A stretch of 64,000 nt of DNA from assembly GCF_033170155.1 (NCBI RefSeq), contig NZ_CP137079.1, positions 558,001-622,000 on the forward strand, written 5' to 3'. The position numbers were made by a program, and so were the translations under genes. Positions 3,283-43,542 of the stretch are shown here, one piece after another. Position 1 is the stretch's first letter. Every line of letters begins with the position of its first letter. The DNA comes from Raineyella sp. W15-4. Lineage in GTDB: Bacteria; Actinomycetota; Actinomycetes; Propionibacteriales; Propionibacteriaceae. The notes beneath the pieces were generated by a model. That model was not told where the DNA came from. It saw only the letters and a program-made list of their open reading frames with translations, and did no database searches.

Positions 3283-5637
3283 TCAGTTGCCCCCGCTCGG
3301 TGTCGGCGTGGGGGAGGCCTGGGTCTGGTTGTCGCCCTGCGGTGCCGGCCCGGCGGAGAAGGTCAGGTAGACGGTGGAGGACTGGGGCGCCTGGTCCTTC
3401 GGTGAGACGCCGAGGAAGGTGCCGTACGGCGCGGAGTTGTAGAGGTAGGTCTGGTCGACCTGGAAGCCGGCGGCCTCGAGGGCCTTGCGGGCGTCGTCCG
3501 GGGTCATCTGGTCGACCCCCTGGGGCAGGGCGACCATCTGGCCGGGCTGGAACTCCGCCTTCACCTGGCCGAACGAGGTCGCCGGTTTACCCTGCAGCCC
3601 CGCGGTCATCGCGGACTTGTAGATCCGGCCGGCGTCGCCCGACCCGGAGCCGGTCAGCACGGTGCCGGAGACCGGCAGCCGGACGCCCTTCAGAGTCTTG
3701 GTGTGGGTGTTCCAGTACGAGTTGGTCTTGTCGATGGCGATCATCGAGGCGCCGGCCAGCTCCGGGGTGTACCCGACGAACCACACCGTCTGGTTGCTGT
3801 CGGTGGTGCCGGTCTTGCCGGCCTGGTCCTGGTAGCCGTCGACCCGGGCCGGTTTGCCGGTGCCGTTGGCCGACACCCCGGTGAGCACCTTGTTGACCGC
3901 CGCGGCGACACCGGCGTCGACGGTGCGCTGGCAGTTCGCGCTCGGGGTGGCCAGCGGCTTGCCGTCGGCGGTGGTCATCGAGCCGATGATCACCGCGTCG
4001 CAGTGGATCCCGCCGGAGGCGAAGGTCGCCATCGCCTCGGCCATCGACACCGGCGCGATCTCGGCGACGCCCAGCACGAACGACGGGTTACGGTTCATCA
4101 GCTGGACGATGTCGCCGCCGGTGGCCATCTGCACCCCGACCTTCTGGGCCATCTTCGTGGCGTTGCAGATGCCGGTGTCGCGGATCAGCTGGACGTAGTA
4201 GGTGTTGACCGACCAGTCGGTGGCGGTTTGCAGATCCATCGACGCGGCCGACCGGGTCGAGTTCGACACCGTCCACGGCTCGCGCAGGACGAACGGCCCA
4301 CTGCACGAGGTGAAAGTAGTGCCCTGGAAGCTCATCGGGGAGTCGGCCGGGTAGGTCTTGTCGATCGGGATCCCCTTCTCGAACGCGGCCGCCAGGGTGA
4401 AGATCTTGAACGTCGACCCCGCCTGGTAGCCCTCGGCGCCGCCCATCGCCTGGGTGGCGTTGTAGTTGTAGAAGGTCTCGCCGGTCCCGTTGCCCATCGA
4501 CGGGCGGCTCTGCGCCATCGCCTGGATCTCGCCGGTGCCCGGTTTGATCATCACCATCGTGCCGAGGGCCGGGTCCCGATCGGACACCACGCTGGAGACC
4601 GACTTCTGGGTGGCCTCCTGCACCCGCGGATCGATGGTGGTGCGGATGGTGAGACCGCCGCGGTTGAGCATCCGCTGGCGGTCCTCGACGGTCTCGCCGA
4701 GGGCGGGGGAGTTCAGCAGCTCGTGGCGGGCGTACTCACAGACGAACGGGTAGGGGCTCGAGGCGCAGCCGTTGCGGGTCGCGCTGACCTTGGACGCGTC
4801 GAAGTCGGTCGCCTTCGCCTGGTCGACCTGGTCCTTCAGGGTCGGGTCGAGTTCGGCCATCCGGTCCAGCACCACATTGCGACGCTCCAGGGCGGTCTGT
4901 GAGTGCAGCCGCGGGTTGTACGCGTCCGGGTTCTGCACCAGACCGGCGAGCATGGCCGCCTGGGCCAGGGTGAGGTCCTTCGCCGACGTGTTGAAATAGT
5001 GGTGGGCGGCGGCCTCCACGCCATAGGCTCCGTCACCGTAGTAGGCGATGTTGAGATAGCGCTCCAGGATCTGGTCCTTCGACAGCCGCTTCTCCAGAGC
5101 GATCGCGTACCGCATCTCCTGGATCTTGCGGCCGTACGACTTCTCCTGGGCCTGCTTGACGCCCTCTTCGTTGCCGTTCGCCAGCGCGGTCTCGATCTGC
5201 ACCCCCTTGACATACTGCTGGGTGATCGAGGAACCGCCCTGGGTGGCGCCGCCGGCGCTGTTGCGCAGGAAGGCACGCAGGGTGCCCTGAACGTCGATCG
5301 CGCCGTGCTGGTAGAAGCGGTGGTCCTCGATGTCGAGCTGCGCCTGGCGCATCACCGGCGCGATCTCCGACAGCGGCACGTAGACGCGGTTCTCGTCGTA
5401 GAAGGTGGCCAATGTGGTGCCGTCCGCCATCAGCAGAGTGGAACGCTCGGCCTGGGGCGGGGTCTCAAGGTTGGCCGGGAGGTCCTGCAGCCCGGCCGCG
5501 GCGGCCTTCAGCGTCGACGTGGCGACGCCGACCCCGGGCATGACGAAGCCGGCTGCGAGCACGCCAATCAGGACGCTCACGACCAAGAGGGTCAGGACCG
5601 CCTGCGTGCTGCCACCGGGGCGAGGATCTTCCGACAC
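3283..5637 (-). CDS. Bifunctional class A penicillin-binding protein with PASTA domain (PonA2-like)
   Basis: Peptidoglycan glycosyltransferase/DD-transpeptidase, 784 residues from the GTG at 5637. One transmembrane segment (about 12-35) is followed by a GT51 domain with catalytic EDHRFYQHG (Glu104) and GGSSITQQ. The transpeptidase domain has STFK (SxxK), SVN and KTGTT. A C-terminal PASTA domain (about 690-765) precedes a Pro/Thr tail. The frame is open to 6288, but the upstream part is Arg/Pro-rich and lacks homology features, so the internal GTG next to the membrane segment is preferred. Cell-wall synthesis enzyme; PonA2 of mycobacteria is the syntenic counterpart. Confidence 0.92.
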   Translation of the reverse strand: MSEDPRPGGSTQAVLTLLVVSVLIGVLAAGFVMPGVGVATSTLKAAAAGLQDLPANLETPPQAERSTLLMADGTTLATFYDENRVYVPLSEIAPVMRQAQLDIEDHRFYQHGAIDVQGTLRAFLRNSAGGATQGGSSITQQYVKGVQIETALANGNEEGVKQAQEKSYGRKIQEMRYAIALEKRLSKDQILERYLNIAYYGDGAYGVEAAAHHYFNTSAKDLTLAQAAMLAGLVQNPDAYNPRLHSQTALERRNVVLDRMAELDPTLKDQVDQAKATDFDASKVSATRNGCASSPYPFVCEYARHELLNSPALGETVEDRQRMLNRGGLTIRTTIDPRVQEATQKSVSSVVSDRDPALGTMVMIKPGTGEIQAMAQSRPSMGNGTGETFYNYNATQAMGGAEGYQAGSTFKIFTLAAAFEKGIPIDKTYPADSPMSFQGTTFTSCSGPFVLREPWTVSNSTRSAASMDLQTATDWSVNTYYVQLIRDTGICNATKMAQKVGVQMATGGDIVQLMNRNPSFVLGVAEIAPVSMAEAMATFASGGIHCDAVIIGSMTTADGKPLATPSANCQRTVDAGVAAAVNKVLTGVSANGTGKPARVDGYQDQAGKTGTTDSNQTVWFVGYTPELAGASMIAIDKTNSYWNTHTKTLKGVRLPVSGTVLTGSGSGDAGRIYKSAMTAGLQGKPATSFGQVKAEFQPGQMVALPQGVDQMTPDDARKALEAAGFQVDQTYLYNSAPYGTFLGVSPKDQAPQSSTVYLTFSAGPAPQGDNQTQASPTPTPSGGN

Positions 5638-6040
5638 GATCCCGAGCCTACGTGACAGGGGGACTCGACCCAATGGTCCGCGCCGACGGATCGGGGGAAG
5701 CGGCACGGACCGCGGGCCTCGCCGGGTCGGCGAACCCGGGGGCTCGGCCCGCTGACGCGATCCGGACGTGATCCGCCGGCGTGGGCCGGACGTGACGAGG
5801 CTCTCCCGCGGGGAGCAGAGTACGCCGGGTGAGCCAGGGTGCACCGCGGAACCGCTTCGGGCTACGATGACCGAGTAACACCACCTGGGTGATTGGTCCA
5901 CTTCACCGGGCGGACGGCAAACAGGCGCCGCCCGTCGCGGGGACCGATCGGCCAGGTGTGGGACACCGGGGATCAGGGGAGATCCTCGGGCGAGCAATGA
6001 GCCGCACCGCTCCAACGACGGATCGAAAGGCGGGGTCATC
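5638..6040. other. Divergent intergenic region ponA2-like / whiB4-like
   Basis: 403 bases with no convincing gene. The ponA2 frame stays open through part of it but reads as Arg/Pro-rich noise. TACGAT at 5863-5868 could be the -10 box of the WhiB gene; no clear -35 partner is visible. No strong repeat or hairpin noted. Confidence 0.4.
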
Positions 6041-6364
6041 GTGACCGCACTTGTCGGTGAAGACTGGGCAGTACACGCGAACTGCGGGGGCCGTTTCGAC
6101 GAGCTCTTCGCTGAGGGAGCCGCCCAGCGCAAGGCACGGGGTATCTGCATGGGGTGCCCGGTACGGGTGGAATGCCTGGCCGAGGCCCTGGACAACCGGA
6201 TCAACTGGGGGATGTGGGGCGGTCTGACCGAGCGCGAGCGCCGCAAGATCCTCCGCGAGAACCCCGAGATCCGGGAGTGGGCCGACATCCTGCGGGCACA
6301 TGACGGGAAGGTCCCCGGCGCGGCACATCACCCGGCACCCCGGCGGGCGGCCGCGGCGGTCTGA
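6041..6364 (+). CDS. WhiB-family iron-sulfur regulator (WhiB4-like)
   Basis: 107-residue WhiB protein. The four cluster-binding cysteines are Cys15, Cys36, Cys39 and Cys45 (ANCGG, GICMGCPVRVEC), followed by the WGGLTERERR turn and a basic C-terminus. The GTG start at 6041 has AAAGGCGGG upstream. WhiB proteins bind a [4Fe-4S] cluster and the sigma factor and respond to redox or NO. Its position next to ponA2-like and crp genes matches whiB4 (Rv3681c) of M. tuberculosis, hence the subfamily suggestion; the family itself is certain. Confidence 0.92.
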   Translation: MTALVGEDWAVHANCGGRFDELFAEGAAQRKARGICMGCPVRVECLAEALDNRINWGMWGGLTERERRKILRENPEIREWADILRAHDGKVPGAAHHPAPRRAAAAV

Positions 6365-6447
6365 CCGTAGGGCGCGCCCGGGCGTACGGCACCGCAGCGC
6401 GGGGCGTACGCCACCCCGGAGCAACTCGAACACGGAGCAGCTCGAGC

Positions 6448-7203
6448 TCAGAGCAGTTCGAGATACTCCAGTTGCGCCTTGACAGTGAGGGCGGCGGCCT
6501 GGTGGGTCGGTCCCACCAGGTCCCCGTACACCGCGTCGACCAGCGCCGGCACCGACGTGTGGCCGGCCTGGTAGGCCACCCGGATCTGGTCCAGGCGCTG
6601 CTGACGGTGCTCACGGTAGGCGCGGATCCGGGCGATCGGGTCGGTGACGATCGGGCCGTGGCCGGGCATCAGGCGACGGATCCCGTAGAGCTCGGTGAGT
6701 CGCTCCATCTTGTCCAGGGTGGCGAGGTAGAGGGCGAGGTTGCCGTCCGGCCAACTGATCTGGGTGGTGCCGCGGCCCAGGATGGTGTCCCCGCAGAACA
6801 TCACCGGCCCGTCGTCCAGGAACACGATGAAGCCGATCGAGTCACGGGTGTGACCGGGCAGGGTGACGCAGATCACCGCGCTTCCGCCGACCTGGCCGCG
6901 TTCGCCGTCCCTCAGCGGATCGGTCATCGCGATGGTGGGGTCGTACGCCCGGATCGGGCAGCCGGTCCATTCGGCCAGCCGCATCGCGCCGCCGACGTGG
7001 TCGGCATGCCCGTGGGTGATCCAGATCTCCGAGATGCCGTCGGGGCAGGCTCGCCGGACCCGGTCGAGATGGCCGAAGTCGGAGGGGCCCGGGTCGATCA
7101 CCACGGCGGGCGTGCCGTCGCGGCCCGGGATGATCCAGGTGTTCGTGCCCTCCAGCGTCATCGCGCCAGGATTGGGCACCAGGATGCGCTGGGGCTCGGT
7201 CAC
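6448..7203 (-). CDS. Metallo-beta-lactamase fold hydrolase (Rv3677c-like)
   Basis: 251 residues. The N-terminus NPGAMTLEGTNTW is typical of the glyoxalase-II/LACTB2-like branch. The metal site THGHADHVGG (63-72) is followed by further ligands in LPGHTRDS, CGDTILGRG and MPGHGP, so both zinc sites appear intact. Downstream of the RidA gene on the same strand with a 36-base gap, in the order known from mycobacteria. Substrate unknown; thioesters or nucleic acids are typical for the branch. Confidence 0.88.
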   Translation of the reverse strand: MTEPQRILVPNPGAMTLEGTNTWIIPGRDGTPAVVIDPGPSDFGHLDRVRRACPDGISEIWITHGHADHVGGAMRLAEWTGCPIRAYDPTIAMTDPLRDGERGQVGGSAVICVTLPGHTRDSIGFIVFLDDGPVMFCGDTILGRGTTQISWPDGNLALYLATLDKMERLTELYGIRRLMPGHGPIVTDPIARIRAYREHRQQRLDQIRVAYQAGHTSVPALVDAVYGDLVGPTHQAAALTVKAQLEYLELL

Positions 7204-7239
7204 GGTGGATCCTCCTCGCGCCGGGTGTCGGCGCGGTCG

Positions 7240-7698
7240 TCAGGCGAGGGTGACGGTCAGTTCGACCTCGACGGGAGCGTCGAGCGGGAGTACGGCCACG
7301 CCGACGGCACTGCGGACGTGCCGGCCGGCCGCGCCGAAGACGGCGCCGAGCAGCTCACTGGCTCCGTTGGCGACCCCGGCCTGGCCGGTGAACCCGGGGT
7401 CGCTGGCGACGTACACGCAGACCCGGGAGATCCCGGCGATGGCGTCGAGGCCGCCGGCGGCGTCCGCGGCGGCGGCCAGGGCGTTGAGGGCGGCGGTCCG
7501 GGCCAGGTCGTGGCCCTGTTCCGGGGTGACCCCCGCGCCGAGCTTGCCGGTCAGCGGCAGGGCGCCGGCGACCAGCGGCAGCTGGCCGGAGGTGGTCACC
7601 CGGGAGCCCTCGCGCCGCGCCGGGACGTACGCCCCGACCGGGGTCGCGACGGCGGGCAGGGTGAGGCCGAGCTCGGCCAGTCGGCTGGTCGGGGTCAC
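7240..7698 (-). CDS. RidA/YjgF-type imine deaminase
   Basis: 152 residues from a GTG at 7698 preceded by GGAGGACACCAA. RidA family proteins hydrolyse reactive enamines/imines formed by PLP enzymes. Seen here: SGQLPLVAGALPLTGKLG, the helix with LNALAAA, and the C-terminal RSAVGVAVLPLDAPVEVELT, where Arg is the usual carboxylate-binding residue. The start overlaps the stop of the DUF4177 gene in GTGA, so the two are coupled. Confidence 0.87.
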   Translation of the reverse strand: MTPTSRLAELGLTLPAVATPVGAYVPARREGSRVTTSGQLPLVAGALPLTGKLGAGVTPEQGHDLARTAALNALAAAADAAGGLDAIAGISRVCVYVASDPGFTGQAGVANGASELLGAVFGAAGRHVRSAVGVAVLPLDAPVEVELTVTLA

Positions 7699-7859
7699 TT
7701 GGTGTCCTCCAGCGGCCGCTTGAGGTAGGCGACCAGGCTCTCCGGGTTGGGACCGGGGACGACCTGGACCAGTTCCCAGCCGTCGACGCCCCAGTTGTCG
7801 AGGATCTGCTTGGTCGCGTGTGTCAGCACCGGGACGGTCACGTACTCCCACTTGGTCAT
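7695..7859 (-). CDS. DUF4177 small protein
   Basis: 54 residues, too short for many gene callers. It begins MTKWEYVTVPVL, contains DNWGVDGWELVQV and ends with AYLKRP, the hallmarks of DUF4177. The gene lies between crp and ridA on the same strand and overlaps ridA by four bases, exactly as Rv3678A does in M. tuberculosis. Function unknown; the single-domain fold and tight coupling suggest a role tied to RidA or the membrane. Confidence 0.85.
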   Translation of the reverse strand: MTKWEYVTVPVLTHATKQILDNWGVDGWELVQVVPGPNPESLVAYLKRPLEDTK

Positions 7860-7868
7860 GGCGTCAGA

Positions 7869-8546
7869 CTAGCGGGCGCGCCGGGAGATCCGGTCCACGT
7901 CGAGGATGGTGACGGAGCGCGGCTCCAGTCGGATCCAGCCGCGGGCGGCGAAGTCGGCCAGCGCCTTGTTCACCGTCTCCCGGGAGGCGCCGACCAGCTG
8001 GGCCAGTTCCTCCTGGGTCAGGTCGTGGTGCACCAGGATGCCCTCGGGGCGCTGCTCGCCGAACCGGCCGGACAGGTCCACCAAGGCCTTGGCGACTCGG
8101 CCCGGCACGTCGGAGAAGACCAGGTCACTGACCGAGTCGTTGGCGTGCCGCAGCCGTCGGGCCAGCTGGGCCATGATGCCCTGGGCCACCTGCGGATAGT
8201 CCTTCAGCCACTTGACCAGATCGTCGTGCTCCAGACAGCGCAGTTCCGCGGCGGTGACCGCGGTCGCCGTGGTCGATCGCGGCCCGGGGTCGAAGACGGA
8301 CAGTTCGCCGAACATCTGCCCCGGTCCGAGCACCTCCATCAGGTTCTCCCTGCCGGTCGCGCCGGTGCGGCCGAGCTTGATCTTGCCCGACACGACGATG
8401 TAGAGCTGGTTGCCGCTGTCGCCCTCGTGGAAGAGGACGGCTCCCCGGCTCAGGCGGATGCTGGACATCGAGTGGGCCAGGGCGTTGGTCGCCTCGCGGT
8501 CCAGCCCCCGGAAGAGGGGTGCCTGCTTGAGCACGTCCGGATCCAC
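7869..8546 (-). CDS. crp: Crp/Fnr-family cAMP-responsive regulator
   Basis: 225 residues: an N-terminal cyclic-nucleotide-binding barrel with GELSVFDPGPRSTTATA as the phosphate-binding cassette (Glu, Arg, Thr conserved), a long dimerisation helix, and a C-terminal winged helix (LTQEELAQLVGASRETVNKAL). No FNR-type cysteine cluster is seen. It is the positional equivalent of Rv3676 (Crp) and GlxR, global regulators in actinobacteria. Divergent from nth, with about 140 bases between them that would hold both promoters. Confidence 0.93.
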   Translation of the reverse strand: MDPDVLKQAPLFRGLDREATNALAHSMSSIRLSRGAVLFHEGDSGNQLYIVVSGKIKLGRTGATGRENLMEVLGPGQMFGELSVFDPGPRSTTATAVTAAELRCLEHDDLVKWLKDYPQVAQGIMAQLARRLRHANDSVSDLVFSDVPGRVAKALVDLSGRFGEQRPEGILVHHDLTQEELAQLVGASRETVNKALADFAARGWIRLEPRSVTILDVDRISRRAR

Positions 8547-8685
8547 TTTTCCTCCTGCACTGGCCGTGGTTACGGCCCTAGACTAGCCGTTCGGCGTGAG
8601 CGTGTCGCACCGGACGAGGCCCCTGTCACATCGAGCCGTCGCGAACGGCGACCCCGGGAACGCCCCGGGCGGCTACCCTGCTGGG

Positions 8686-9405
8686 GTGACGGCGCGTGAC
8701 GCTCGCGAGGGGCGGGAGACCAGGACGGCGCTGGTCCGGCGTGCCCGCCGGATCGACCGGATCCTCGCCCAGACCTATCCCGACGCCCGGGCGGAGCTGG
8801 ACTTCGGCTCGCCCTGGCAGCTGCTGGTGGCGACCATCCTGTCCGCCCAGACCACCGACGTACGGGTCAACTCCGTCACGCCGGAGCTGTTCCGCCGCTG
8901 GCCTGATCCCGCGGCATTGGCCGGCGCCGACCGTACGGAGCTGGAGGAGGTGCTGCGTCCGCTCGGCTTCTACCGGGCCAAGAGCGAGGCGCTGCTGCAG
9001 CTGGGCCGTCGGCTGTTGGACGACTTCGGTGGTGTGGTGCCACGGACGCTGCCGGAGCTGGTCACTCTGCCCGGGGTGGGCCGCAAGACCGCCAACGTCG
9101 TGCTCGGCAACGCCTTCGGCATCCCCGGGATCACCGTGGACACCCACTTCGGGCGGCTCGCCCGGCGGTTCGGCTGGACCACCCAGACCGATCCGGACAA
9201 GGTCGAGGCCGAGGTCGGGGCGCTGTTCCCGCCGGCGGACTGGGTGATGCTCTGCCACCACCTGATCTGGCACGGCCGGCGCCGCTGCCACGCCCGCCGC
9301 CCGGCGTGTGGGGCCTGTCCGGTGGCTGCGCTGTGCCCGGCGTACGGCGAGGGGGAGACCGACCCGGTGAAGGCTGCGGCGCTGGTCCGGGAACCGCGCC
9401 GATGA
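8686..9405 (+). CDS. nth: Endonuclease III
   Basis: DNA glycosylase/AP lyase for oxidised pyrimidines. 239 residues from the GTG at 8686 (an in-frame GTG at 8596 would add about 30 unconserved residues). Helix-hairpin-helix [12 protein letters not shown] with catalytic Lys134, Asp152 in VDTHF, and the [4Fe-4S] cysteines Cys201, Cys208, Cys211, Cys217 in the classic C-x6-C-x2-C-x5-C spacing. Its stop overlaps the start of the next gene (ATGA). Confidence 0.95.
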
Positions 9406-10103
9406 GGTCGATCGGTCGCGGCGGACGGACTGCGGCGTGGCGCCGGGCGCTGCCGGCTGTTGTCGTGGGGTGGCTTCTGCTGGTGACGGGGTGCGCCGCC
9501 ACCCAGCCGGTGCAGCCGGTCGCCCCGTCGTCCGGCAGCGCCGCCGCGTCGGCAGGCGCCGACGGATCCGCCAGTCCCTCAAGTCCGCCCCCCGACCTGG
9601 TCGGTCGACGTGAATCACTGGGCATCGCGCCGTGCCCGGCGCCGACCGCAGGCGGCGCTGCGGTCGCCAGCACCGCCGGAGCCGATCAGTTGCCGTCCCT
9701 CCTGCAGACCTGCCTGGACGGCTCGGGCTCAGTGGACCTGTCAGCGCTGCGGGGCACCCCGATGGTGGTCAACCTCTGGGCCACCTGGTGCGGTCCCTGT
9801 CGGACCGAGGCGCCGTTCCTCGCCGAGGCGTCGCAGCAGTCCGGGGGATCGGTGCGGTTCGTCGGGGTGGACGTGGCGGACCCCGATCCCGCCGCCGCGC
9901 TGGAGTTCGCGGCCGGCCAGGGGTGGACGTACGCCCAGGTGGCGGACCCTGACCGCGCATTCGCGGGGCGGATCGGCGTGGTGGGGATCCCGCAGACGCT
10001 GTTCGTCGACGCCGACGGGCGGATCGTGTATCGGCACGCCGGGGCGCTCACCTCCGCTGACCAGCTGCGGGGACTGCTGCGCGACCAGCTGGCCATCGGC
10101 TGA
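9402..10103 (+). CDS. Thioredoxin-like lipoprotein (TlpA/ResA type, Rv3673c-like)
   Basis: 233 residues. The signal sequence ends in lipobox LVTGC (Cys31), followed by a Ser/Ala/Pro-rich linker and a thioredoxin domain with active site WCGPC (129-133) and the cis-Pro segment VGIPQT. It is expected to be an extracytoplasmic, membrane-tethered disulfide reductase or oxidase. Overlaps the nth stop by four bases; the same gene follows nth in mycobacteria. Confidence 0.9.
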
Positions 10104-10174
10104 GTGGTGATCTGTGACCGGCACCGCGGTTGTGAAAGGATAGACGGACTGCCCGCGGGGGAGGGGAGAGCTCG

Positions 10175-11098
10175 ATGGTGGCCGGGTACCGCGCGGTGCT
10201 GCACCTGGATGTCGACAGCGACGCCACGGCCGTTGCCGACGTGCAGTTCCGAGCCTGGGTGGACAAACTGTCCCGAGATCGTCGCAAAACGGTCGGGAGG
10301 ATCGAGTGGGACCGATCTGGCGTCTACGTCCTCGGTCCGCACTCCACGTTGACCGTCGTGGAGGACCACGCCGTCGGCGGGGTGCATTCCCTCCTTCTCG
10401 AGTACGTCGAGAGCAATGATGCCGGTGTCTGGACCACGCGCTTGTGTGCATCCGCGGACCCGTTCGATGCCCGGCAGATGCTGGTGTTCGAGGGAGATGG
10501 CGTCGGGCCCGACGGCGAGCCCGCCGAGCCTGCTACGGCTCGACTCGTTCGGGACACCTTGCGGGCAGTCGCGGCGACTGACGGCGCGGTTCCGGTCTTT
10601 TCCGACCCGGTGGCCCTCGAACCGGCCGAGGCGGACTGGCTCGCCGACATCATCGAGAGCGACCGCCGCGTCACGTGCATCGCCCTCGCGCCAGTCGTCC
10701 CAGGGGTCCCGATCGAGCGTTGGCGTGCCATCATCAACTCCTTGACGCGGGACTCGTGGGGATGTGCCTCCTTCTTCGTCCTCGACCAGGAGGCGACCCG
10801 GGTCATCGCGTCCCGGCTGGGGGTCGCGGGCCTGGCACGCCCAGGCTCGCTGCGTCTTCTCACCCCGCCGGCTGGTGCGGGCTCGTGGGGCGACGACCGT
10901 CGGCATCCGGTTTTCGGCGTCGACGTTCTCTCACGTGAACTGGGGGAGAACGGGCGCTTTTCGGAGGACCTTGTCCGGAGGGTGAGCGAGGTGCCCCGCC
11001 GGTACAGTCGCGAAGTCGGCCTGCCGCATGGGCTGGCGGTGACGTTCGATTCGCTCCGTCGTGAGCGTGACCGGCTCACCTACACCCCGCTGTCCTGA
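10175..11098 (+). CDS. Unrecognised protein, first gene of a two-gene cassette
   Basis: 307 residues, not assigned to a family. Starts at ATG 10175 behind GGGGAGGGGAGAG. An N-terminal strand-rich segment (YRAVLHLDVD, YVLGPHSTLTVVEDH, HSLLLEYVES) is followed by a presumed alpha/beta domain with hydrophobic strand VTCIALAPVVPG and the segment ASFFVLDQEATRVI. No signal peptide, transmembrane helix or catalytic motif is obvious. It precedes a second unknown gene by 11 bases, and both sit between genes that are neighbours in related genomes, so the pair probably arrived together. Function unknown. Confidence 0.75.
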   Translation: MVAGYRAVLHLDVDSDATAVADVQFRAWVDKLSRDRRKTVGRIEWDRSGVYVLGPHSTLTVVEDHAVGGVHSLLLEYVESNDAGVWTTRLCASADPFDARQMLVFEGDGVGPDGEPAEPATARLVRDTLRAVAATDGAVPVFSDPVALEPAEADWLADIIESDRRVTCIALAPVVPGVPIERWRAIINSLTRDSWGCASFFVLDQEATRVIASRLGVAGLARPGSLRLLTPPAGAGSWGDDRRHPVFGVDVLSRELGENGRFSEDLVRRVSEVPRRYSREVGLPHGLAVTFDSLRRERDRLTYTPLS

Positions 11099-11109
11099 GG
11101 GGGACAGTC

Positions 11110-12552
11110 ATGGCCCGTCAACCAGGTGGCGCAACGCCGGTGAACGAGTACGGGTACCGCGGTGCCGGAAGCAAACACACACACGCGCCTCCCAAGACCC
11201 GGGTGCTGGTGAGGCTGTTCGACGGCGACGCCTTCGTCGACCGCTTCCTGCGGACCGAAGGCGGGTTTCACTACTTCGCCAACCATCCTCGGGTGAAGTC
11301 TCGACTCGTCTATCAGCTCACCATCCTGACCAAGAGCAAGCAGGCCGCTCGCGGGATCGTGGTGGGGGGCACCGACCAGGCACCCGGCACCCACGGCCAC
11401 ACGGTCGGTGGTGAGGATCGCGCAGTCGGGCCGTCGAAGCGACAGGAAGCAGAGACCCAGCCCGCCGTCCCGTTCGATCTGTTCGCCCAGGAGTTCGCGA
11501 CGTGGACGCCCTGGCCCGCCTTCGGGCGTCCACGAGACATGCTCCTGAGGCCGGTCAGGCGCTACCAGGACGCGTATGCCGCCGCACTGAGCGCTGTACT
11601 CAGGGGTGTGTCGTCGGCCCGGCTGAAACGTCGGTACGCCGGCGCCGGCGAAGATCTCACCGACTACGCGGGATCCGGGCTCGCGGACACCCATATCCGC
11701 GCAGTGGAAGCGGCCGGTGAGGGACTGCCCGATCGCTACGTCGCGGTGCGTGAGTTCGCGTGGATCCATCTCATGCTGACCGCCCTGCCGTTCTGGCAGC
11801 GCATCCTGGAGGGGCGTGACCTCAGCCCGCAGCAGATCACCGGACTCCAGTTCTGGCGCGCCATGGAGGCCATGGTGATGATGCAGGCGCGCGAGAACAA
11901 CCCGAAGATGTACGCCGGGCCGTACGCGGCGACCGAGCATGCCAAGGGGTTCCGCCGCTTCCAGGGCGAGAGCCTCGCAGAGTACGACCTGATGATCCTG
12001 CTGCTCGAGCTGGCCAAGACCCGACCATGGCTCGACATTCTCCCGGCGCCCGCCCACTTCACTCGCGGTCCGAACGGCTCGGCGGTCGTTCTCCTTGATC
12101 GAGAACGACGCGAGGTCGTCGCGGTGCGCGTTCGGGCGGACGATGGTCAGGTGGACTTCGATTCGCCCGACCGGCCCGGCCCGGCCGGCTCCGACACCGG
12201 CATGGTCGTGGTGGTCGACTCAGCACTCGATCTCGGCAATATCGTTCGCCTGAGGTTGCCCGGCGACGGCGCCACTGTCGGAGCGCGGGCCTGGCCCGGC
12301 GTCGTGGCCGCCCAACGCCTCGCGGAACACAGGAAGTACGGAGACGACCTTCGGCACGTGCCTAACCCACCTCAGCTTCTGCACTTCGTCAAGACTGCGC
12401 GCCGGCTCACCGAGGAACGTGCCGGCACCATCGATCTTGCGTTGGAGACGCTCCGCACCAGCATCCTGGGCCGGTTCGCCCGGGAACGCGAGACGAGCGA
12501 ACCCTCCCTCGACGGCGCCGCGCCGCCCCGGGCCCGCACGTCGTCCACGTGA
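11110..12552 (+). CDS. Unrecognised protein, second gene of the two-gene cassette
   Basis: 480 residues, start ATG 11110 behind GAGGGGGGAC, so it is co-transcribed with the gene before it. An N-terminal strand segment (RVLVRLFDGDAFVDRF) leads into a mainly helical middle (about 150-320) with FAWIHLMLTALPFWQ, a Met-rich run AMEAMVMMQARE, and AEYDLMILLLELAKTRPW. A beta-rich part follows (VVLLDRERREVVAVRVR, MVVVVDSALDLG). No membrane segments or known catalytic motif. Codon use resembles the chromosome. Function unknown; a two-protein complex with its neighbour is an inference from coupling. Confidence 0.75.
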   Translation: MARQPGGATPVNEYGYRGAGSKHTHAPPKTRVLVRLFDGDAFVDRFLRTEGGFHYFANHPRVKSRLVYQLTILTKSKQAARGIVVGGTDQAPGTHGHTVGGEDRAVGPSKRQEAETQPAVPFDLFAQEFATWTPWPAFGRPRDMLLRPVRRYQDAYAAALSAVLRGVSSARLKRRYAGAGEDLTDYAGSGLADTHIRAVEAAGEGLPDRYVAVREFAWIHLMLTALPFWQRILEGRDLSPQQITGLQFWRAMEAMVMMQARENNPKMYAGPYAATEHAKGFRRFQGESLAEYDLMILLLELAKTRPWLDILPAPAHFTRGPNGSAVVLLDRERREVVAVRVRADDGQVDFDSPDRPGPAGSDTGMVVVVDSALDLGNIVRLRLPGDGATVGARAWPGVVAAQRLAEHRKYGDDLRHVPNPPQLLHFVKTARRLTEERAGTIDLALETLRTSILGRFARERETSEPSLDGAAPPRARTSST

Positions 12553-12594
12553 CACTGTCGCGGCCTGAGCCGCGCGGACGGAGGACTGCGTACA

Positions 12595-13401
12595 GTGGCG
12601 GTCATGCCGGAGCAGATTCCCGACGTCGAGGGACCGGATTTCCTCGACGATGCGTCAGACAGTCCGGAACGTCCCCGGCCGCTCACCGGGTACCCGCGTG
12701 ACCTCGGCGAGCGGGACGTGGAACTCGACGAGCGGCCCGCCGCCCGGCAGCCGATCCCGTCGGTGCTGCGTACGCTCCGGGTGACGTTGGGTGCGCCGGA
12801 GACCCAGCAGCGGGTGCTGATCGACCGGGCGCCGCAGGGCGGCCGCCGGGCTGCGGTGCTCGCCCTGTTCGACACCCGGCCGCCGGCGCCCCGGCTGCTG
12901 TTCGTGGAGAAGTCGGCGCACCTGCGCCGTCATGCCGGCCAGATCGCATTCCCCGGCGGATCCTGGGCCGAGGGCGACGAGGGGCCGGTCGGCACCGCGC
13001 AGCGGGAGGCCGGGGAGGAAGCCGCTGTCCGTCCCGACTCGTTCCGGGTGCTCGGCGTGCTGCCCACCGCCCATGTCTCGGCCAGCGGCTTCGACGTCGC
13101 CACCGTGGTCGCCTGGTGGCACACCCCGCACCCGGTCGAGGTCAACGACCCCGGGGAGATCGCCGCGCTGCACCAGATCGAGGTGCGTCGACTGGTCGAC
13201 CCGGCCAACCGGGCCACGGTGCGCTACCCCGGCGGCCGGCGCGGGCCGGCGTTCCTGATCGACGACCTTTTCATCTGGGGGCTGACCGCCCACCTGGTCG
13301 ACGCGCTCATCGACCTGGCCGGCTGGACCGTCCCCTGGGACCACGACCGGATCCGCCCGGTCCCGCTGCGCTTCGGCCGGGACCACGACCCGGCCCGCTG
13401 A
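12595..13401 (+). CDS. Nudix hydrolase of the CoA-pyrophosphatase type (Rv3672c-like)
   Basis: 268 residues from GTG 12595 (GGAGG ten bases upstream; ATG 12604 is the alternative). Nudix box: FPGGSWAEGDE ... AQREAGEEAAV, with the REaxEE core intact and the GGx5D form typical of the CoA-diphosphatase branch. LRRHAGQIAFPGG before it fits that branch. An N-terminal extension of about 70 residues is acidic and variable. In mycobacteria it directly follows the thioredoxin-like gene; here the unknown cassette separates them. Confidence 0.87.
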   Translation: MAVMPEQIPDVEGPDFLDDASDSPERPRPLTGYPRDLGERDVELDERPAARQPIPSVLRTLRVTLGAPETQQRVLIDRAPQGGRRAAVLALFDTRPPAPRLLFVEKSAHLRRHAGQIAFPGGSWAEGDEGPVGTAQREAGEEAAVRPDSFRVLGVLPTAHVSASGFDVATVVAWWHTPHPVEVNDPGEIAALHQIEVRRLVDPANRATVRYPGGRRGPAFLIDDLFIWGLTAHLVDALIDLAGWTVPWDHDRIRPVPLRFGRDHDPAR

Positions 13402-42399: not shown

Positions 42400-43542
42400 A
42401 TGGGAATCATTCAGGCGTTCACCGGCGCTCTCGGCGGCACTTTCGCGGATCAGTGGAAGGACATTATCACCGCCGGGCACTTCACCGAGTACACGGTGGT
42501 CGCTCCGGGCGTCTATCAGCAGACCAACAACGGACGCGGGACGAACTTCAAGGGTTCGGTCGATGTCATCTCCAACGGTTCAAAGATATTTGTCCCTGAG
42601 AACACCGCCGCCTTCATCTTCAGTCAAGCGGGCATCGAGGATGTGGTTACCCAAGCAGGCGGGTACGAATACCGCGCAGGACAACCAAGCATCTTCAGCG
42701 GGGACGGATTCACCGTATCGATCGTGAACCAGACTGTTGATCGCATTGGCTACGGCGGGCAGACCTCGGACCAGAAGTACCTCGCCTTCGTCAATTTGCG
42801 CGAAATTCGTGGGCTCAAGTTCGGCACACGTGGGCCGATGGTTTATCACGACAAGTTCTACGGTGCGGACTTGGAGCTCATGGCGTTTGGGAGCTTCTCT
42901 CTTCGTGTCGTTGACGCCGTCGCATTCGTTCGGAACTTCTTGCCGGCGAACGCGCGCTACTACGCTTTTGACAGCGCCGAGGCTCGCCAGCAGATCTCTT
43001 CCGAGTTCATGCAGGCGTTCCTCGTTGCGGTCAACTCACTCTCGGCAACGCACCGTATTTCTGAGCTGCCTTCACAGGCGGGGTCCATTGCCGAACTGAT
43101 CGCCGATGACAATTCCGCACTCGGATCGTGGATCACTCGATACGGGCTTGACGTGGTCCAGGTCGGTATCGAGAGCATCGAGTTCTCGCCCGAGTCGCGG
43201 GAACTTGTCAAGCAGTACTCCGCGAACAAGATGAACATCTCGGCGTTCGAGGGCATCTCGCAGCAGACTTCAAACGTCGCCGCACAGCAGAAGGTTGCAC
43301 AAGGAGTCCAGGATCACGGACTCGGTGACGCGGGCGGGATGCTATTCGGCATGAATCTTGCCCAAGCGATCAGCCCGATGACCGCAGCACCGGCCACGCC
43401 AGTGGCTCCAATCTCGTCAACACCAGGGTTGTCACTCGACGAGCAGATCGAGTCCGTCAGAAAGCTGAAGGATCTCGTTGATGCCGGGATCCTGTCTCAA
43501 GACGAGTTTGAGGCGAAGAAGAAGCAGGTAATGGGTCTTTGA
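42400..43542 (+). CDS. SPFH-domain protein with C-terminal SHOCT motif (YdjI-like)
   Basis: 380 residues from ATG 42400 behind AGAAGGAATC. The N-terminal region (TEYTVVAPGVYQQ, SKIFVPENTAAFIF) and the band-7/SPFH core, including YGLDVVQVGIESIEF, resemble the YdjI/virion-core-protein-like family. An Ala/Pro linker leads to a SHOCT segment (EQIESVRKLKDLVDAGILS, about 349-380). YdjI of Bacillus subtilis acts at the membrane with a PspA homologue; here it is paired with the PH-like/zinc-ribbon protein. Membrane-stress or phage-defence cargo is an inference. Confidence 0.8.
   Translation: MGIIQAFTGALGGTFADQWKDIITAGHFTEYTVVAPGVYQQTNNGRGTNFKGSVDVISNGSKIFVPENTAAFIFSQAGIEDVVTQAGGYEYRAGQPSIFSGDGFTVSIVNQTVDRIGYGGQTSDQKYLAFVNLREIRGLKFGTRGPMVYHDKFYGADLELMAFGSFSLRVVDAVAFVRNFLPANARYYAFDSAEARQQISSEFMQAFLVAVNSLSATHRISELPSQAGSIAELIADDNSALGSWITRYGLDVVQVGIESIEFSPESRELVKQYSANKMNISAFEGISQQTSNVAAQQKVAQGVQDHGLGDAGGMLFGMNLAQAISPMTAAPATPVAPISSTPGLSLDEQIESVRKLKDLVDAGILSQDEFEAKKKQVMGL

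Follow-up and report, generated by a model that had tools for sequence, protein, structure and literature searches.

The window, that is, the whole 64,000-nucleotide stretch of DNA that was analysed, covers positions 558001-622000 of the 3.96-Mb, single-contig genome of Raineyella sp. W15-4. The locus under study consists of two genes lying head to tail, flanked by the gene of a thioredoxin-like lipoprotein on the left and that of a Nudix hydrolase on the right (Table 1). Both reading frames, of 307 and 480 residues, were found exactly as the original prediction had claimed, with 11 bases between the stop codon of gene 1 and the start codon of gene 2, and the ribosome sites that it had assigned to both genes correspond to purine-rich stretches in front of both ATGs. 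The GC contents at the three codon positions were 0.73/0.51/0.81 for gene 1 and 0.72/0.51/0.81 for gene 2, a coding pattern in each case. The 11-base gap suggests that the two genes are coupled. Inspection by eye of the two proteins revealed no membrane segments in either of them.

Table 1. Coordinates of the gene pair, its parts and its flanks in the window.
Feature	Position	Strand	Description and basis
Left neighbour, thioredoxin-like lipoprotein	9306..10103	+	ORF and Pfam
Insert, ~2.5 kb	10104..12587	.	By-eye flank comparison with the empty site of congener G003
Gene 1	10175..11098	+	307 aa, ATG start; stand-alone N-terminal half of a HEC-07-like protein (ORF, PADLOC, alignment, tree)
Gene 1 residues 115-272, HEC-07-matched stretch	10517..10990	+	PADLOC and alignment
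Gene 2	11110..12552	+	480 aa, ATG start; divergent representative of an unnamed, putatively PD-(D/E)XK-like family, extended at the N-terminus
Gene 2 residues 1-118, additional front part	11110..11463	+	No counterpart in aligned relatives; no Pfam match
Gene 2 residues 131-406	11500..12327	+	hhalign with a profile built from six relatives
Gene 2 residues 291-345, motif region	11980..12144	+	Alignment with relatives, hhalign
Right neighbour, Nudix hydrolase	12595..13401	+	ORF and Pfam; alternative start is the ATG at 12604

The flanking genes gave Pfam matches to HhH-GPD/EndIII (nth), Redoxin/thioredoxin and NUDIX, in agreement with the identities proposed for them. When the Nudix protein was searched in 37 genomes, 36 of them matched, and 17 of those loci were fetched. 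The thioredoxin-like and Nudix genes are adjacent in 14 of the 17 relative loci, as had been expected of a stable locus, and these include three congeners (G001, G002 and G003), in which 41 to 107 bases lie between the ends of the two matches. In two other loci (L129 and L133), nth lies immediately 5' of the Nudix gene and the thioredoxin-like match was not seen. In the last one (L131 of G008, positions 4324-10105), about 5.8 kb of unrelated genes separate the thioredoxin-like gene from the Nudix gene, and the site may therefore have been opened repeatedly within the family. Neither gene 1 nor gene 2 was found at this site in any of the 17 loci at an E value of 1e-4, the three congeners included. 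Comparison by eye with the empty site of G003 showed that the homology stops at the stop codon of the thioredoxin-like gene (10103) and restarts at about 12588, shortly ahead of the start of the Nudix gene. As none of the 17 relative loci has the pair at this position, the simplest account is that it was inserted there, and these flank comparisons support the view that the cassette is a two-gene insertion in a stable backbone.

The insert contains the two cassette genes only. No direct repeats bound it, no tRNA lies at the site and neither cassette gene matches an integrase, that is, the integrase, terminal repeats and tRNA target of a self-integrating mobile element are all missing here. We also considered foreign composition as proof of transfer and rejected it. 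The two cassette genes agree in composition, with a GC3 value of 0.81 in each. The gap of this value to the neighbours is no outlier within the window, and 14 of the 46 called window frames lie below gene 2 in a comparison that used a crude frame caller, which missed gene 1. Elsewhere in the window, a 627-residue frame with Resolvase and Recombinase domains (356-2239, + strand), a serine recombinase, lies in DNA of lower GC content (0.59-0.64) and overlaps a tRNA-Pro gene (2124-2200, - strand). This region, which backbone genes separate from the cassette some 8 kb away, may mark the end of an integrated element. Another frame (42400-43542, + strand) carries a Band_7/SPFH domain and a SHOCT tail, and its GC content of 0.575 is low for the window.

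The two proteins had been described as members of unrecognised families, a description that Pfam, NCBIfam and PHROGs bear out, whereas PADLOC does recognise gene 1. Pfam and NCBIfam returned nothing for gene 1, and PHROGs nothing below an E value of 0.1, while its residues 115-272 matched positions 137-294 of the 553-position profile of HEC-07 (Hma-embedded candidate 07, PDLC04161) with an E value of 1.2e-4. A HEC-07 search of the order sample, in which the model is present in 28 of 196 genomes, also lists the place of gene 1 (E 7.0e-4). HECs are discussed in PMC10855318 and PMC12988326. In the phylum sample, gene 1 matched in 6 of 396 genomes, including its own and G275; the match in the latter (L007, L013) was judged to be chance, being RsmG-like by eye. 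In the family of G034, 4 of 324 genomes matched, G034 among them. The best relative is a 632-residue protein of G034 with 47% identity over residues 1-299 of gene 1, followed by a 619-residue protein of G1132 with 42% identity over residues 1-305, and these two closest relatives match HEC-07 with E values of 5.5e-16 and 1.8e-18.

Family members were then gathered from the fetched loci by an iterated profile, giving 31 proteins, namely gene 1 and 30 others. The false row L013 had entered the N-region profile, which was slightly contaminated as a result, and was dropped from the final set. Four loci whose HEC-07 match is confined to the C-terminal portion of the model (L065, L081, L084 and L085) failed the N-region profile and stand outside the 31. 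The 30 other members comprise 446-847 residues, which leaves gene 1 as the sole short protein among the 31; three further members (L154-L156) comprise 619-714 residues. Full-length proteins are composed of an N-terminal region, a coiled coil (by eye) and a C-terminal region, and the last matched the PADLOC model of NsnC, between positions 180 and 315 of 316, in all seven full-length relatives tested. Another subtype of the family, outside these seven, ends differently, and some members contain two copies of the N-region. The genome that carries the cassette (G000) also encodes an 847-residue HEC-07-like protein (C1:3174035-3175012; L056, 7886-10429) with two N-region copies and another C-terminus.

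Gene 1 differs from these proteins in being the N-terminal half only, followed by a gene of another family. It stops at residue 307, compared with 526-553 positions in the HEC-07 models, and is entirely without the NsnC-like stretch. We take NsnC to be a part of the Menshen system. The Menshen gene set consists of NsnA, NsnB and NsnC, and neither cassette gene gave a PADLOC match to any of the three up to an E value of 1, so that the pair does not make up this gene set. Within the part that is kept, R165, A198, R227 and H244 as well as the upstream W28 are invariant across 16 alignment rows. In a tree of 16 N-regions, gene 1 is sister to the full-length G034 protein with a support of 100/100, on a branch of 1.19 compared with 0.11 for its sister. 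Given this grouping with a full-length protein, descent of the short form from the long one is the simplest reading. A six-frame search of the cassette revealed no significant trace of the missing C-terminal half, and a frameshifted gene 1 with a hidden C-terminal half was rejected, as the best tblastn piece (E 0.005) falls inside gene 1 itself. Judged from these alignments, gene 1 corresponds to the N-terminal half of a HEC-07-like protein and has neither the coiled coil nor the NsnC-like C-terminal domain of its relatives.

To see in what company the gene 1 family occurs, we surveyed 14 loci, each with one or more neighbours run against PADLOC, Pfam or PDB sequences, at unequal depth. Defence-type genes (restriction, BREX, Hma, DISARM or Septu) were present inside the fetched flank in 7 of the 14 loci, a figure that describes an association and not a measured enrichment, since the loci were partly chosen for tight spacing and have no control set. 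In one locus (L010), DrmA and DrmMI lie 3-5 kb from the gene 1 relative, and in another (L011) there is PglX, with adjoining BrxL and a DrmD-like helicase. HmaB and GmrSD_N adjoin the relative in L059 and are followed by HmaC, while L076 has a divergent HmaB; L060 contains a type IIG RM gene with a Swt1-like HEPN gene, and L062 a type IV/GmrSD-type gene with PtuA. In L154, the relative lies directly 3' of HsdM-HsdS-HsdR with a 1-base overlap. Just past this type I restriction operon, which ends in the gene 1 relative, a PADLOC PDC-S01 match was observed (6831-7895, E 1.4e-50). The other loci contain a UvrD-like helicase only (L058), a Radical SAM frame, which lies downstream of the 847-residue protein (L056), or, in the case of the closest relative of all (L009), a DNA polymerase III alpha gene that lies 57 bases ahead of it, and four (L077, L057, L072 and L075) showed no family match for the one neighbour searched in each, three of them against Pfam only. 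A membrane-bearing helical partner of the gene 1 relatives in L010 and L076 was also considered; the two copies have a weak mutual likeness (E 0.008) and none to gene 2. Both the family model and the neighbours, the latter in about half of the full-length relatives that were looked at, thus support a link of gene 1 to defence.

The polymerase gene in L009 may point elsewhere. A tblastn search with the L009 protein matched seven plasmid records, and the three plasmid loci that were inspected place its relatives near dnaE and a DNA ligase gene (L138), near primase genes (L139) and near a PHP-domain protein gene (L140), with no annotated defence system near the gene 1 relatives in any of these three. 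It is therefore possible that extra DNA polymerase III alpha, primase, PHP-domain and ligase genes, on actinobacterial plasmids and in L009, form a second context of the gene 1 family. On this basis the family could serve plasmid or chromosome DNA replication or repair instead of defence, which would make the cassette a repair accessory. The restriction, BREX, Hma, DISARM or Septu genes near half of the surveyed loci, together with the matches of the family to the HEC-07 and NsnC models, speak against such a role, and we regard it as rather improbable.

Gene 2 gave no significant match in Pfam, PADLOC, NCBIfam or PHROGs, the sole listed one being a Pfam family at an E value of 0.2, and nothing significant was found in the PDB. 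A search of 57 genomes returned its own copy only. Weak matches in 12 other genomes among 394 of the class (limit 0.1; L014-L025, best E 0.0016) were judged to be chance, as were those in five other genomes among 198 of the family (L116-L120, E 2.2e-4 to 0.0099), four of which contain stops and two of which (L117 and L120) were inspected. The same judgement was reached for L008, which is antisense of a secD-like frame, for L017, which matched again in the search of the family of G034, and for G746 (E 0.009) in that family. Genuine relatives were found among 197 genomes of the G034 family, in G1110, G908, G898 and G888 (E 5.6e-11 to 6.6e-8), with a second copy in G888 (E 2.4e-4). All four genomes belong to the genus of G034, a different one from that of the cassette's own genome. 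With these relatives in hand, we rejected the notion of gene 2 as a true orphan. A profile search of 191 order genomes then added one more relative, in G019 (L163, E 2.7e-30).

Three of these six relatives comprise 347-376 residues as called and the other three frames 401-476 residues. The longer frames align well only from the start motif onward, and because good alignment begins only at this same motif, their upstream parts were taken as wrong starts. Since the relatives begin at this common start motif, residues 1-118 of gene 2 are extra. An Sm/Hfq-like nature of this N-terminus, suggested by eye, found no support, as PF21979 was not detected in G000 at an E value of 10. The core of gene 2 aligned with the profile of the six relatives (L149-L153 and L163) in hhalign with a probability of 98.2% and an E value of 5.1e-14, and on this profile similarity its membership in their unnamed family is firm.

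All six relatives retain the series ExD ... APxQFE ... NxD ... QxK, which by motif and spacing we take to be the pattern of PD-(D/E)XK nucleases. No Pfam family spans the six, and none of them gave a nuclease match against Pfam, PADLOC or PDB chains. The relatives would thus form an unnamed PD-(D/E)XK-like family, outside the coverage of Pfam and PADLOC, whose putative catalytic residues are intact in the six members other than gene 2. Gene 2 differs from them at these very positions. It keeps the ExD and the PAP turn, while APxQFE reads APAHFT, with H and T for the Q and E of QFE. At NxD it has G for N and A325 for D, and QxK reads R340-V-R342; the hhalign alignment is free of gaps between the NxD and QxK positions. 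The catalytic D and (E/Q)xK, kept in all six relatives, are accordingly absent from gene 2, and as the D, Q and K positions are occupied by A, R and R, gene 2 is probably not a nuclease. It probably represents a nuclease relative that is catalytically dead and carries a new front of 118 residues. A single-sequence structure model of gene 2 reached a mean pLDDT of 35.9, which was too poor for a fold search and lends no support to a nuclease fold or to the helical core put forward for this protein.

With regard to the surroundings of the gene 2 relatives, one of 376 residues (L150) has a macrodomain gene, itself preceded by DarT, at a distance of about 1.2 kb. In L151 and L152, the relative adjoins a frame that by eye resembles an NAD-dependent DNA ligase. 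No HEC-07-like gene is present in any of the five loci L149-L153, and G019 carries one 0.79 Mb away from its gene 2 relative, so the pairing was seen once only. The nuclease-like family and the one relative near the DarT/macrodomain protein weakly suggest a link of gene 2 to defence.

Taken together, the proposal of an exchangeable defence or conflict module was upheld for the insertion in a stable backbone, through the empty sites, and for the defence link of gene 1, and to a weaker degree for that of gene 2. As a working defence or conflict system the pair is at most putative: gene 1 is without its C-terminal half, gene 2 is without its putative catalytic residues, and no second genome with the pair was found among those searched. 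A defence role of the pair itself is plausible, by association.

The losses in both proteins also suit the reading that the pair is a decaying remnant of an inserted defence locus, a truncated sensor with a dead nuclease and no present function. Each gene lacks the parts that define its family, the branch of gene 1 is long, and the pair is confined to one genome among those searched. However, both frames are intact with the codon-position pattern of coding DNA, gene 1 stops at the end of the N-region and retains the residues that are invariant in its relatives, no piece of the lost half is left in the cassette, and the two genes are tightly arranged. We consider decay unlikely.

Alternatively, the pair might be a decoy or dominant-negative inhibitor that serves anti-restriction or self-protection. 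The stand-alone N-domain and the dead nuclease would then block restriction systems, or those of the full-length HEC-07 type, by occupying their partners or their targets. The retention of the N-domain by gene 1 without the C-terminal half, and of much of the family core by gene 2 without D, Q and K, would suit such an inhibitor, and G000 does encode a full-length HEC-07-like protein elsewhere. That protein is nevertheless of a different subtype, with its two N-region copies and different C-terminus; moreover, neither cassette gene matched plasmids or viral contigs and gene 2 matched no phage. We hold this blocking role to be very improbable. A broader version, in which the HEC-07-type domain and the dead PD-(D/E)XK relative with its new N-terminal domain form an immune or counter-immune module that blocks, guards or reports on full-length HEC-07 or restriction systems, with no DNA cleavage, appears to us quite improbable.

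The reading that we prefer, tentatively and at somewhat less than even confidence, takes the cassette for an accessory module of two acquired genes, built from two families of the anti-phage or restriction type and working as a sensor or regulator that does not cut. In such a module, the proteins of gene 1 and gene 2 would be made together and act together. Gene 1 would recognise a signal or nucleic acid related to an invader, and gene 2, its cutting ability lost, would bind DNA or a nucleotide as an adaptor or regulator. The pair would then sense or modulate, without destroying DNA itself. There is a possible parallel in BrxHII, a defence protein in which an inactive REase-fold domain is read by the authors as a nucleotide sensor (PMC12839542). 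The sensor role of that dead nuclease-type domain resembles the one proposed here for gene 2, although BrxHII is another protein and the likeness is no more than a parallel. Literature under the HEC-07 name yielded only an unrelated paper, and under Menshen/NsnC unrelated work, a result that is limited to these names and says nothing further on whether the pair has been published.

On this preferred reading, the pair would show a defence-associated family taken apart, with the HEC-07-like N-terminal half kept alone and joined with a nuclease relative without the cutting residues. If the pair works, the N-domain would be sufficient for recognition, and the cassette would offer a small system in which to learn what HEC-07-like proteins sense.
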